Assembly: GCA_944389345.1 (NCBI GenBank)
Contig: CALXMA010000008.1
Coordinates: forward strand, 1 to 35,082
Length of the DNA: 35,082 nucleotides
From: an uncultured Alphaproteobacteria bacterium
Lineage (GTDB): Bacteria > Pseudomonadota > Alphaproteobacteria > Rs-D84
Direction: 5' to 3'
Shown here: one piece after another, positions 14,515-19,785 of the stretch
Layout of the letters: each line of letters begins with the position of its first letter
Numbering within the stretch: the first letter of the stretch is position 1
Notes under the pieces: model-generated
What the model saw: the letters and a program-made list of their open reading frames with translations, nothing else
The model's database searches: none
What the model was told of the DNA's origin: nothing
Program-made: the position numbers and the translations under genes

Positions 14515-14530
14515 CATTTAATGCAAAATA

Positions 14531-14539
14531 TGATATACT
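14531..14539 (+). promoter_or_regulatory. Extended -10 promoter of cluster gene E
   Basis: TGATATACT with TATACT at 14534-14539. The likely ATG at 14548 begins only 8 nt further on, so the transcript is predicted to start at or within about two bases of the start codon (leaderless). Confidence 0.6.
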
Positions 14540-14547
14540 TAAAAGCA

Positions 14548-15837
14548 ATGAATAGACTAAAAAAGTTCTGGATAGTTTTTTTGTCTTTCCTGCCATTTTC
14601 CGCGGGGGCGGTTGCGCCGTTTGTGGTTGGTGCGATTGCGGGCGTGGGTGTTATCGCGGGTTTTTCTATATACAGGACGGTTGCGCCCGTTAATATGGCG
14701 GACGCGTTGAATTTCTTTACCAGTTGTTGGTCGTGCCAGATGTTTTCAGATATAATGGCGACGATGTCTGGTTTGGTACCGCGTGTGTACGATGCGCTGG
14801 GGTCTGTGATATTGCCATTTTCTGCGGGACTGTTGGCGATATGGTTTGCGTGGAAAATATTTTCTGGGTTTATTAATTCCAAGATAGAAGAACCATGGTC
14901 ATTGACCAGTGATTTTGGAACCAAGGTATTAAAATTGGCCTTTGTTGGTGCGCTGTTGATGATACCGTTGCCCCGCCTGTTGACATCTGTGGTCATAGAA
15001 CCGGTATTTAATGTTGGATTGTCGCTGAACAGGGCGGTTGCCGGCAACGACGAATTTGCAAAATGTGTGGTTGCGACGGCCATTGCCGATCCCACGGTGG
15101 CCAGTGTTGAATCCGCGTCCGCCGGGGCGTTTTCGCCACGTCTGCGTCATAATCTTTCGTGCGAGGTTGCAAACGTTCATCAAATGACGGGATTGGGGAT
15201 GACGGTTGGATGGACGATGTTGAATATGGCGTTTAACGAAGAATATATGCATAAAATGATGTGGGACATACCGATTTTCCCGAACGTTCCGATTTTCTTT
15301 GCGGGTTTGTTGATATTGGTGCTGTTCTTTTTCGCACTGTTGCCGGTCCCGTTGTATTTTTTAGAGGTATTTATAAAACTGTCCATGGATTTGATAATGT
15401 TGCCATTTATGCTGATGTCATGGCTGTTCAAGGGATGGGGCATATTCCCCAATGGGGGACGTAATATCAAGAACATGATAAACGATGTGGTGCGCGCAAC
15501 GGCCGGTATTGCCATGGTTGGCGTGTTTATAACATTTGCTGTTATGTTTTTGAATGCGGTATTTGGTCGTTGGGACGGTGCGGACAGATTGGCGTTGGCA
15601 TTGTCTGAAAACGATGCGACGATATTGATGGACGGCCTGATGATGCGCAACGACAGTATTATAACGATTCTGTTGATGGGAATATTTATTGCGATGTTTA
15701 TGACAATGATACCCGCGCTGGTCAAGACGTTGTTCGCCCAGGTTGAAATTCCCACATCATTTTACGAATCGACACGTAAAAATCTGGACATTATGTGGAA
15801 AAACCTGAAAAAATGGTACGCCACATTAAAAAAATAA
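14548..15837 (+). CDS. VirB6/TrbL-like multi-pass inner-membrane protein with N-terminal CxxC (cluster gene E)
   Basis: The protein has 429 aa from the ATG at 14548. An upstream in-frame ATG at 14521 overlaps the -10 element and is unlikely. It starts with a signal or anchor (residues 5-21, FSAGAVA). C60-W-S-C63 sits in the same place as in gene C, followed by PWSLTSDFGTKVLKLAFVGALLM and LPRLLTSVVIEPV, clearly homologous to gene B. About seven hydrophobic segments follow, including LLILVLFFFALLPVPLYFL, and the tail is basic (WYATLKK). It is the only member on the plus strand, divergent from A-D. Likely a type IV secretion inner-membrane channel subunit; this is inference. Confidence 0.65.
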   Translation: MNRLKKFWIVFLSFLPFSAGAVAPFVVGAIAGVGVIAGFSIYRTVAPVNMADALNFFTSCWSCQMFSDIMATMSGLVPRVYDALGSVILPFSAGLLAIWFAWKIFSGFINSKIEEPWSLTSDFGTKVLKLAFVGALLMIPLPRLLTSVVIEPVFNVGLSLNRAVAGNDEFAKCVVATAIADPTVASVESASAGAFSPRLRHNLSCEVANVHQMTGLGMTVGWTMLNMAFNEEYMHKMMWDIPIFPNVPIFFAGLLILVLFFFALLPVPLYFLEVFIKLSMDLIMLPFMLMSWLFKGWGIFPNGGRNIKNMINDVVRATAGIAMVGVFITFAVMFLNAVFGRWDGADRLALALSENDATILMDGLMMRNDSIITILLMGIFIAMFMTMIPALVKTLFAQVEIPTSFYESTRKNLDIMWKNLKKWYATLKK

Positions 15838-15905: not shown

Positions 15906-16424
15906 ATGAAGCAGTTTCCGATTCTTTATTGGCCACGAAAAACAACCGCTGATACCGACTATCAATTGGCGCGCAAGGTTATAAACAGTGCGACGGGTGT
16001 AATGCCGGACGTTTTGACGGGTGATTTGGATTTGATGGGTATATTATCTGCGAATCCGAATGCGACGGTATATTATCCCGTGTTTTGTGAATCTACGGGT
16101 TGGTGGGGCGAATTATTGGGTGGCGATGCGATTGTAATTGACAAGATGATTATATCACCAGAATGTCAATTAATGGTTATTGAATCCGAACGCACTGCGA
16201 CGAAATCGGCACGCAGTGGAAAAAATCAACTGTTGGCGGCGGAAATTCGCCCGACCAGCGGTTTTTTCAAGAAAATGAATTCTGGGATTGCGACGGTTTC
16301 TGATATGTTGGCGACGGATGCGGGCACGATATTGGCGTTGTTCACCGGGAAAAGCCAGACACAATTCATAAATATTTTGGAATCTACGGGCAATTCGTAT
16401 TTGGGCTGTATTGGCCGATACTAA
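15906..16424 (+). CDS. Hypothetical protein, 172 aa
   Basis: I do not recognise this protein. It lacks a signal peptide and clear transmembrane segments. It starts MKQFPILYWPRK, has a central YYPVFCESTGWWGELLGG stretch and a C-terminal half with possible amphipathic helices, and contains three Cys in all. Base composition matches its neighbours, so recent transfer is not indicated. It lies between cluster gene E and rpmE, with its own -10 directly upstream. It could belong functionally to either neighbour; nothing in the sequence decides. Confidence 0.7.
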   Translation: MKQFPILYWPRKTTADTDYQLARKVINSATGVMPDVLTGDLDLMGILSANPNATVYYPVFCESTGWWGELLGGDAIVIDKMIISPECQLMVIESERTATKSARSGKNQLLAAEIRPTSGFFKKMNSGIATVSDMLATDAGTILALFTGKSQTQFINILESTGNSYLGCIGRY

Positions 16425-16744: not shown

Positions 16745-17449
16745 ATGGAACTGCTGATTAAGGGTTCAACCGAATTAAACAAAATGTTTATGGCGTTGCA
16801 ACGGACCGCGTCCGGTTTGCGCCACGATTTTGGAGAAGTTGAAAACCTGCAACAGTCCCTGCGTGGTGCCCGTGATTTCGTTGCGCGTGCATCTGCCAGA
16901 ATCGAAGAAAGCATCCTGTCGGATTTGTTGTTGGTGCGTCCGTCGGCGGGATTGTTAACGCCGAATGTCACGCATGATGGCGATGGGCGTGATGAATTTG
17001 TTTTGGCGTTGTCGGGCGCGGGGAACTTTGTCCGTGGTAATCCGCATTTTGCGATTTCGTTGGCATTGCGTTCTAATGATGAAACGAAAATTGCACTGGT
17101 GTATTCCCCGATTGACGAACGCCTGTATTACGCAGAATCTGAACGTGGTGCGTATGTGTTTTCCGCATACCATTCTGCGCGCATACGCGTGTCCAATTTA
17201 TCAGAACCATCGGATGTAACGGTTGCATATAATACATCTGATGCGCGTGCCACGATTGGTGATGTGCGCCGTACCGGATGTCCCGCATTGGATTTGGCGT
17301 GGGTTGCGGCGGGTAAATTTGATGCGTATGTATCTGATCCGCTGGATTTTGCGGAAATTGCGGCGGGCGATTTGCTGGTCCGCGAAGCGGGCGGAAAAAT
17401 TCAAATGGACGCGGACTTGGTTGCGTCAAATGGTTGCATAGAATTATAA
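16745..17449 (+). CDS. SuhB/inositol-monophosphatase-like protein lacking catalytic residues
   Basis: The 234-aa protein follows the inositol monophosphatase fold order: an N-terminal GARDFVARASARIEESI, then GAGNFVRGNPHFAISLAL (family DPLDGTTNF...HFAISIAL), YSPIDERLYYAE, RTGCPALDLAWVAAGKFDAYV and AAGDLLVREAGGKI. The metal-binding residues are missing. The EE of the GEE motif is replaced by TPN, the DPLDGT motif by LALSGAG, and the WDxAAG motif by FAEIAAG. A phosphatase is therefore unlikely. Known: E. coli SuhB helps the Nus antitermination complex in rRNA synthesis, a role reported not to need its catalytic activity. Linkage to rpmE would suit a retained RNA or ribosome role, but this is inference. 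Confidence 0.75.
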   Translation: MELLIKGSTELNKMFMALQRTASGLRHDFGEVENLQQSLRGARDFVARASARIEESILSDLLLVRPSAGLLTPNVTHDGDGRDEFVLALSGAGNFVRGNPHFAISLALRSNDETKIALVYSPIDERLYYAESERGAYVFSAYHSARIRVSNLSEPSDVTVAYNTSDARATIGDVRRTGCPALDLAWVAAGKFDAYVSDPLDFAEIAAGDLLVREAGGKIQMDADLVASNGCIEL

Positions 17450-17497: not shown

Positions 17498-17523
17498 AAA
17501 AAAACCGCCATTTTGGCGGTTTT
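17498..17523 (-). terminator. Intrinsic terminator, stronger on the minus strand
   Basis: AAAACCGCCA pairs with TGGCGGTTTT around a short loop. There are seven T in a row on the minus strand but only four on the plus strand. It therefore best serves the minus-strand ncRNA from about 17620, and may also stop rpmE-suhB transcription. Confidence 0.8.
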
Positions 17524-17620
17524 AATCTTGGTGACCCGGCAATAAATCAAATGTGTTTTTCAGGAGAGAGAAACACTGCCGACCCGCCGGGTCAATATAA
17601 TACTGAACTCTCCCTACAAC
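17498..17620 (-). ncRNA. Putative structured small RNA of about 120 nt, unassigned
   Basis: On the minus strand an extended -10 TGATATAAT (17635-17627) is followed about 7 nt later by a predicted start near 17620. An intrinsic terminator at 17523-17498 closes the transcript. In between, a 9-bp stem forms from 17586-17594 with 17532-17540 (TGACCCGGC/GCCGGGTCA). Inside it is a hairpin 17553-17558/17571-17576 (GTGTTT/AAACAC). Its loop CTCTCTCC can pair with GGGAGAG near the 5' end (17608-17614), a potential pseudoknot. GACCC/GGGTC at 17581-17593 can form an alternative hairpin. No open reading frame is apparent in this stretch. It might be a 6S-type or lineage-specific RNA; I recognise no family. 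Confidence 0.55.
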
Positions 17621-17626
17621 GTGGGT

Positions 17627-17635
17627 ATTATATCA
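17627..17635 (-). promoter_or_regulatory. Extended -10 promoter for the minus-strand small RNA
   Basis: TGATATAAT on the minus strand, with TATAAT at 17632-17627. The -35 is weak (TGGAAT at 17 nt). The same motif type drives several protein genes in the window. Confidence 0.55.
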
Positions 17636-17686: not shown

Positions 17687-17713
17687 TTTACACAAAACTT
17701 GCAAAGATAAAAT
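17687..17713 (+). promoter_or_regulatory. Possible promoter of the PBP1A gene
   Basis: TTTACA (17687-17692) and TAAAAT (17708-17713) at a short 15-nt spacing, in AT-rich DNA 24 nt before the ATG at 17737. Weak evidence only. Confidence 0.35.
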
Positions 17714-17736
17714 AAATATCCTAAGATTCAAAAGTT

Positions 17737-19785
17737 ATGAAATTCAAGAAATTTTTACGTATTTTTTTGAACATCTTGTTCTGGGGATTCACGTTTGGTA
17801 TCGCGGCATTGGCGATATTACTGTTAATTTACGGGAACGATTTACCAGATTATAAAAAATTGGCGACATATGCACCACCGGTTGCGACGCGTCTGTACGC
17901 ATCTGATGGCAGTTTGTTAATCGAATACGCCGAAGAACGCCGTGTATTTATTGACTTTGACGATTTACCGCCCCAGTTGGTAAATGCGTTCATTGCGGCC
18001 GAAGATCAAAATTTCTGGACACATCCCGGCATTGATATCCAGGGTATAACCCGCGCGGCGGTAAATAATGGGTTGCGTATGTTGGGCTTTGACGCGCGTT
18101 TTTCTGGTGCGTCCACAATCACGCAACAGGTGGCCAAGAATTTCTTTTTAACGTCTGAACGCACGATTTCGCGCAAGATAAAAGAGGCTATATTGGCCAT
18201 GCGTCTGGAACGTACATTTTCCAAAGAACATATTTTGACACTGTACCTGAATCAAATATATTTGGGGGCGCGTGCGTATGGTGTTGGTTCGGCGGCATTG
18301 ATGTATTTTAATAAACCTGTATCTGAATTAACGCTGTCTGAATGCGCATTTTTGGCCGCTTTGCCCAAGGCGCCAAATAACCGCGACCATGCCATAGAAC
18401 GTCGTAATTATGTTTTGAACCGTATGGTGGACGAAGGATATATAACCCAATCCGATGCGACCACGGCGATGGCGGAACCATTAAATATCAACAGTGGTTT
18501 TACCGCCCAAATGGATGCAGATTTTCAATACTTTGCCGAAGATGTCCGTCGTCAATTATTAGAAACATTGGGGCGCGATACACTGTATAACCAGGGTCTG
18601 TACATAAAAACGACCATTGTCCCGGAATTACAGCACGCGGCCAGTTCTGCGTTAAACAAAGAACTGGACAGATATAATTCTGTTCGCGGTGAAAACGAAC
18701 CGAAATTACAGGGCGCGATTATTGCGATGAATCCGCACACTGGGCGTATTGTCGCGATGTCTGGGGGGCGTTCATTCGCGGACAGTTCGTTTAATCGCGC
18801 GACCCAGGCCATGCGTCAAATCGGCAGTACGATAAAACCATTTGTGTATCTGGCGGCGCTGGAACGCGGAATGTCGCCCCAGGCATTAATATTGGATGCA
18901 CCGATTGTTGGTTGGCGCGAAGATAATTCTTTGTGGAAACCTGAAAATTACGACAAAAAATTCTTGGGTGATATTCCGTTGCGTTATGCACTGGAAACAT
19001 CGCGTAATGTTCCCGCGGTCCGATTGGTGCAACAGTTGGGCGTTGAAAACGCCATAGAGGTTGCACAACGCTTTGGTGTATATCCGCCAGATTTGAAAAA
19101 TGTAAATTTGTCTTTGGCACTGGGGTCTGGTGAAACGACACTGGAACGTTTGGTGTTGGGTTATTCGGCGTTTGTAAACGGTGGCCACGTGGTTCAACCT
19201 AAATTGGTTGATTATATCGAAGACAGATATGGTCGTGTCATAAATGGCCCAGAAACGGAATTAATCGAATGGCAACCAGATATGTTGCCACCGGAACGCG
19301 TTGATGAAAACGAACCGTTGTCTGACCCACAAAGTCTGTATCAAATGGTGTCTATTTTACAGGGCGTTGTTGAACGTGGTACCGGGAAACAGGCACGTGT
19401 TCCGGGGCATACAATTGCTGGTAAAACGGGCACGACGAATGATGTCAAAGATATATGGTTTGTCGGATTTTCCAAGAATCTGATTGCCGGCGTTTATTTG
19501 GGCTTTGATATGCCACGTCCGTTGGGCACCGGCGCGGGCAGTCATATGGCCGCGCGCGTATTTGCGGATTTTATGAAGACCGCATTGGCCAATGAAAAAG
19601 ACCAGGCATTTTCCATTCCGGACGGATTGACATTTGTTCGTGTTAACAGAATGTCCGGGGCGGCCGCCACCGAAGATCCAAACGGCACCATTATTACCGA
19701 GGCGTTTAAGCCGGGCCAGCATCCAAATCCGGCGCCTGCGACCAAGGCAACTACAACGGGGCCGGTTGTTGGTGGCGTATTTTAA
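17737..19785 (+). CDS. mrcA: Penicillin-binding protein 1A (bifunctional transglycosylase/transpeptidase)
   Basis: The 682-aa class A PBP has one N-terminal transmembrane anchor (about residues 10-32). The GT51 glycosyltransferase domain has E89-D-Q-N-F-W-T-H-P-G, GASTITQQVAKN (124-135), KIKEAILAMRLE and HILTLYLNQIYLG. The transpeptidase domain has S364-T-I-K367, S422-R-N424 and K563-T-G565. It polymerises lipid II into glycan strands and cross-links the stem peptides in the periplasm. Many proteobacterial PBP1A proteins are about 800-850 aa, so this is a compact form with little or no inserted domain between the two catalytic modules. The short low-complexity tail is Pro/Ala/Thr-rich. It leads the mraY-ftsW-murG block. 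Confidence 0.95.
   Translation: MKFKKFLRIFLNILFWGFTFGIAALAILLLIYGNDLPDYKKLATYAPPVATRLYASDGSLLIEYAEERRVFIDFDDLPPQLVNAFIAAEDQNFWTHPGIDIQGITRAAVNNGLRMLGFDARFSGASTITQQVAKNFFLTSERTISRKIKEAILAMRLERTFSKEHILTLYLNQIYLGARAYGVGSAALMYFNKPVSELTLSECAFLAALPKAPNNRDHAIERRNYVLNRMVDEGYITQSDATTAMAEPLNINSGFTAQMDADFQYFAEDVRRQLLETLGRDTLYNQGLYIKTTIVPELQHAASSALNKELDRYNSVRGENEPKLQGAIIAMNPHTGRIVAMSGGRSFADSSFNRATQAMRQIGSTIKPFVYLAALERGMSPQALILDAPIVGWREDNSLWKPENYDKKFLGDIPLRYALETSRNVPAVRLVQQLGVENAIEVAQRFGVYPPDLKNVNLSLALGSGETTLERLVLGYSAFVNGGHVVQPKLVDYIEDRYGRVINGPETELIEWQPDMLPPERVDENEPLSDPQSLYQMVSILQGVVERGTGKQARVPGHTIAGKTGTTNDVKDIWFVGFSKNLIAGVYLGFDMPRPLGTGAGSHMAARVFADFMKTALANEKDQAFSIPDGLTFVRVNRMSGAAATEDPNGTIITEAFKPGQHPNPAPATKATTTGPVVGGVF

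Follow-up and report, generated by a model that had tools for sequence, protein, structure and literature searches.

The small RNAs of the alphaR8 family (RF00519; MmgR of Sinorhizobium and SisA-D of Caulobacter) are Hfq-associated alphaproteobacterial RNAs that end at an intrinsic terminator and carry a conserved unpaired pyrimidine-rich stretch complementary to Shine-Dalgarno (SD) sequences, and they usually adjoin an N-formylglutamate amidohydrolase gene. In Caulobacter, SisA represses many targets, likely through its anti-SD stretch, and the core of this stretch in alphaR8 is the 10-mer UUUCCUCCCU (PMC12559287). PmaR of Agrobacterium folds like a spoon, with a long stem and a C-rich loop that is exposed and binds the targets (PMC6234868), and sRNA-Xcc1 (RF02221) lies upstream of symE in Xanthomonas integron cassettes (PMC12444791). 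For Candidatus Enterousia, which is placed in order Rs-D84 (PMC12306168), no regulatory RNA was found in the literature searched. Here, we analysed a 35,082-nt stretch of DNA (the window) from a 0.89-Mb genome of Candidatus Enterousia. Judging from the sequence, a ~120-nt stretch on its minus strand is a genuine small RNA (sRNA) gene, whose transcription we infer, and the gene has not been described before in this gut bacterium. The sRNA is a new family of a known kind, the anti-SD sRNAs, with a narrow distribution.

The sRNA gene is located on the minus strand between a convergent suhB-like inositol monophosphatase gene (16745..17449, plus strand; Pfam PF00459, E 1.6e-25) and a divergent class-A penicillin-binding protein gene, pbp1A (17737..19785, plus strand; Pfam PF00912 and PF00905). 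Its predicted transcript of ~122 nt runs from about 17620 to 17498, with ends set by an extended -10 promoter element, TGATATAAT (17635-17627, minus strand), and an intrinsic terminator, AAAACCGCCA-aaa-TGGCGGTTTT followed by a T run (17523-17501, minus strand), which is bidirectional and common to suhB on the plus strand. The original prediction had placed these two elements around about 120 non-coding nucleotides; both were read in the sequence with its coordinates right, and a comparison of frames across relatives found no conserved coding frame in the transcript. As in other anti-SD sRNAs, a promoter and terminator of its own thus surround a non-coding transcript with a conserved unpaired stretch complementary to SD. 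The extended -10 (TGN and 5 or more of the 6 bases of TATAAT) was kept in 12 of 13 relatives, for the most part at an equal distance from pbp1A; the count is inflated by the relatedness of the genomes and compares with a mean of 1.2 and a maximum of 6 for shuffles. In six relatives, the window counted, the element sits 60-61 bases away from the -35 motif of pbp1A, and this placement identifies it as the same promoter. The pbp1A promoter itself, TTGCAA-17-TAAGAT (window 17699-17739, plus strand), ends only 9 bases 5' of the ATG, so that the pbp1A mRNA looks leaderless, and this layout is also present in the relatives whose intergenic regions were read. Two long open reading frames 5' of suhB (14521-15837 and 15906-16424, plus strand) had no Pfam match.

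In the predicted fold, the RNA is closed by a perfect 9-bp long-range stem, with the 5' arm TGACCCGGC (RNA UGACCCGGC) at 17594-17586 and the 3' arm GCCGGGTCA (RNA GCCGGGUCA) at 17540-17532, both on the minus strand. The inner hairpin (17553..17576, minus strand; RNA GUGUUU-CUCUCUCCUGAA-AAACAC) pairs GTGTTT at 17576-17571 with AAACAC at 17558-17553 around the loop CTCTCTCCTGAA (17570-17559). The CU-rich anti-SD loop UUCUCUCUCCUGAA, our proposed seed, spans 17559..17572 on the minus strand and is identical in the five short forms of the RNA (window, L043, L045, L046 and L086). The whole transcript folded more stably than shuffles (z = -4.2), as did its 66-nt core (z = -4.8), for which 0 of 200 shuffles were as good. 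The stems are also conserved in relatives; their lack of conservation, named with the original prediction as a ground for refuting it, was thus checked and did not apply. Both results agree with the predicted structured, probably regulatory minus-strand RNA with a perfect long-range stem and an inner hairpin. The prediction had further proposed two alternative folds, and this part is not supported. The loop is complementary to GGGAGAG (17614-17608, minus strand), the suggested pseudoknot partner, but such complementarity is about at chance level, being reached by 9% of shuffles, and it is missing in relatives. Likewise, the mutually exclusive hairpin between GACCC (17593-17589) and GGGTC (17585-17581, minus strand) is present in the window but missing in L043, L045, L046 and L086. 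As both elements are confined to this species, the alternative folds are not the conserved feature.

To describe conservation, we built a covariance model, R1, from four sequences (window, L043, L045 and L046, where L043 matches L079 and is on this basis Ca. Enterousia avistercoris). R1 matched 8 of 156 Enterousia genomes at E <= 0.01, all eight at the suhB-pbp1A locus, and in many or most relatives the gap between the two genes is just 60-143 bases, without the sRNA. A genus-wide BLAST with window DNA matched almost only look-alike terminators, and one candidate homologue, G009:C65, was rejected as it is a promoter and coding start. The stretch UGUUUCUCUCUCCUGAAAA, including the loop UUUCUCUCUCCUGAA, was invariant in all five short forms, whereas the linkers differ in sequence and length. 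Among relatives, the closing stem occurs as GACCCGG/CCGGGUC, GGCCCGG/CCGGGCC and GGCCCAG/CUGGGCC, and its next pair alternates between C-G and A-U. While the first four sequences alone showed little covariation, in the eight-sequence alignment 100% of the closing-stem cells were paired and three pairs had changed on both sides, against none when the partner was slid by 1-3 columns; the sample is small, with eight related sequences from eight species, and so holds little covariation. Compensatory changes were present in both the closing stem and the inner hairpin. At the same locus, upstream of pbp1A, L047, L048, L049, L051, L052, L090, L092, L093 and L100 have a hairpin on the plus strand, ACUCGG..UCUCUCCUCUGGAUCG..CCGAGU, with a U run behind it, which we denote type B. 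It has the same CU-rich motif as the window RNA in the opposite orientation and scores just 12-16 bits with R1.

Comparison with known RNAs gave no family assignment, as had been predicted: Rfam at gathering and permissive thresholds returned just chance or terminator matches. Even at E 10, the RF00519 covariance model matched neither the window nor L045. The window RNA ends in an intrinsic terminator as alphaR8 does, but the core 10-mer UUUCCUCCCU is replaced by UUUCUCUCUCCU. The anti-SD stretch, single-stranded beside a weak hairpin in alphaR8, is here a hairpin loop inside a long-range stem. In addition, the window RNA does not adjoin an N-formylglutamate amidohydrolase gene. As for Hfq, eight genomes had none above the cut-off, while the control gave a signal. 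We take RF00519 to be the Rfam family named suhB; the name and the suhB neighbourhood that it has in common with the window RNA look coincidental. The window RNA most likely works like the alphaR8 sRNAs but, judging by the 10-mer, the model match and the gene neighbourhood, is not a member of the family. PmaR, compared by description, shares the long stem and exposed loop, but its loop is not anti-SD and most of its targets are activated. The original prediction had also named 6S RNA (RF00013) as a candidate. We exclude it as far as Rfam can tell, with no match in the window or in 9 genomes of the genus and a control signal in 8 of 14 known genomes; the central open bubble is also absent, the fold consisting of a closing stem and a small hairpin with freely varying linker lengths.

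Ribosome-binding sites of the form CAGGAGAGAG are complementary to the loop CUCUCUCC, and the window's own genome (G000) contains 10 GGAGAGA..ATG sites and 0 of the reversed pattern. We scanned 762 crude gene starts in 700,508 of 894,394 bases (78% of the genome). The loop formed 25 duplexes of -14 kcal/mol or better; 60 shuffled loops averaged 4.8, and none had as many as 25. A CU-rich loop of any kind will, however, fit SD sequences better than a shuffled one. The best predicted partner was a beta-barrel outer-membrane protein (PF13505; gene at G000:C9:16998), followed by an FAD-type protein and secreted Cys-rich proteins, among them those of the genes at G000:C1:117557 and G000:C21:1536. 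A signal peptide was present in 5 of the 8 top predicted targets (14% expected, p 0.002) and in 2 of 8 with the 16S anti-SD query, but the enrichment fades below the top eight, and the reversed loop equals it at 25 and 50. One lower-ranked target was a false gene call. Start sites with GGAGAGAG occur at about equal frequency in species without the RNA and show no link to its presence, which gives no indication of co-evolution between targets and RNA. A small HTH-like gene (G000:C2:24108-24422; L184 and L185) has the SD CAGGAGAGAGAAAATG, whose complementarity to the loop extends over 13 bases, and a second such site, GGAGAGAGAATG, lies at a distance of ~300 bases; pairs of sites with similar spacing occur in several relatives, whether or not these have the RNA.

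Considering that its best-conserved part is an exposed loop complementary to ribosome-binding sites, the sRNA most likely silences mRNAs by covering these sites. It would be transcribed independently from the extended -10, end at the bidirectional terminator of suhB and fold as a closed rod, in which the long GC-rich stem presents the inner hairpin and the CU-rich loop UUUCUCUCUCCUGAA stays single-stranded. The loop would then base-pair with CAGGAGAGAG-type SD sequences and block ribosome entry on a set of mRNAs. As Hfq was not found, pairing would probably be Hfq-independent or use another helper. We regard such a trans-acting sRNA as the best explanation and hold it with somewhat better than even confidence, where transcription, seed function, repression, targets and Hfq independence are deduced. 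It is based on the gene anatomy, conservation, covariation, the conserved loop and its complementarity to ribosome-binding sites, all of which were observed. Candidatus Enterousia are genome-reduced gut Alphaproteobacteria, and the sRNA gives a concrete candidate seed in genomes apparently without Hfq.

The same locus holds an sRNA gene of varying size among close relatives, which may be short, long or absent. Eight relatives (L033, L036, L038, L039, L040, L076, L078 and L083) have an RNA of ~330 nt from the same promoter position, consisting of a ~130-nt multibranched domain (M1), a hairpin (M2) and M3, in this order. M2 is a hairpin, GGGAAUGCC..GGCAUUCCC, whose loop UCUUAUCUCCACA is nearly invariant; L034 carries M2 alone. 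M3 corresponds to the window RNA; L038, L083 and L039 keep it well, and in the other long forms it is degenerate or absent. Of these parts, the window contains only M3, between the promoter and the terminator, and lacks M1 and M2; the M1 model, R2, had no match there. Given that its promoter position and terminator equal those of the long RNA, and that several long forms (L033, L036, L076 and L078) have a degenerate M3, the window RNA could be a decaying, functionless remnant of it. We consider this unlikely, as the short forms keep the loop perfectly and the closing stem intact or compensated. Another reading, that the RNA has no action in trans and the locus only insulates or interferes by being transcribed away from pbp1A and towards suhB, is likewise rather unlikely. 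The location between these two genes in 8 of 8 genomes and the common use of the suhB terminator would suit such a role, but transcription alone needs neither an invariant loop nor compensated stems, and most relatives manage without the RNA, with just 60-143 bases between the genes.

A conserved hairpin with an exposed conserved loop, in genomes where Hfq was not found, might also serve as a protein-binding decoy instead of a base-pairing seed. The conserved sequence is, however, exactly an SD complement, and there is no protein candidate: CsrA was unmatched by tblastn in 78% of the genome and would need GGA, which is found on the other strand. We therefore judge a decoy very improbable. Least credible is a micropeptide gene, (A/G)UG UUU CUC UCU CCU GAA AAR CAY (MFLSPEKH), whose eight codons are open in 5 of 5 short forms because of the conserved hairpin, but which has no SD ahead, no conserved C-terminus or stop, wobble positions no less invariant than the others and a frame lost in the long forms L038, L083 and L039.

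The more surprising by-product of the sRNA analysis was M1, which is strongly covarying, multicopy and spread through order Rs-D84. The covariance model R2 for M1 gave matches in 83 of 96 Enterousia genomes, as many as 35 in a single genome, and at E <= 1e-4 in 19 of the 23 genera that were sampled from the order. The window's own genome, G000, has eight copies (L174-L181), at C13:14106-14234, C18:656-790, C1:54830-54955, C1:77506-77630, C2:109191-109307, C3:96040-96175, C2:149673-149808 and C5:28469-28591. In 23 aligned matches, 38 of 38 pairs changed on both sides and 97% of cells paired; this alignment was fitted to the model, and slid versions drop to 37-47% paired cells. Among the copies read, many had a hairpin ACCACC..GGUGGU and a U run directly 3', then an SD and start codon, which is the layout of a transcription attenuator. 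The proteins encoded behind them are secreted and Cys-rich, located in the outer membrane, or small and HTH-like. The second half of M1 resembles sRNA-Xcc1 at 34-40 bits (E 0.0004-0.007), under the gathering score of 53 bits, and the window RNA shows no similarity to it. As far as can be read from its sequence, M1 is an undescribed attenuator-like, multicopy leader RNA, new to Rfam and distantly like sRNA-Xcc1.

EutX/Rli55 and Rli39 are sRNAs under riboswitch control. The long forms resemble them in having a structured, attenuator-like leader, M1, ahead of a non-coding part that carries anti-SD loops; in contrast, M1 has no known ligand and the window copy has no M1. We tentatively suggest, as a possibility well short of even, that the window RNA derives, in shortened form, from a locus where M1 controls the anti-SD hairpins M2 and M3. 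Such a locus would serve bacteria that lack Hfq as a regulated ribosome-binding-site sponge, and its targets might be the genes for secreted and outer-membrane proteins that stand under the direct control of other M1 copies. On the minus strand downstream of M1, L163 (~1310-1500) and L172 (~1360-1520) also have a hairpin, GGGCCCG..CUUCUCAUCUCCAAUCAAAGAAAC..CGGGCCC, much like M2 and M3, and the arrangement of M1 and an anti-SD hairpin therefore recurs at other loci.
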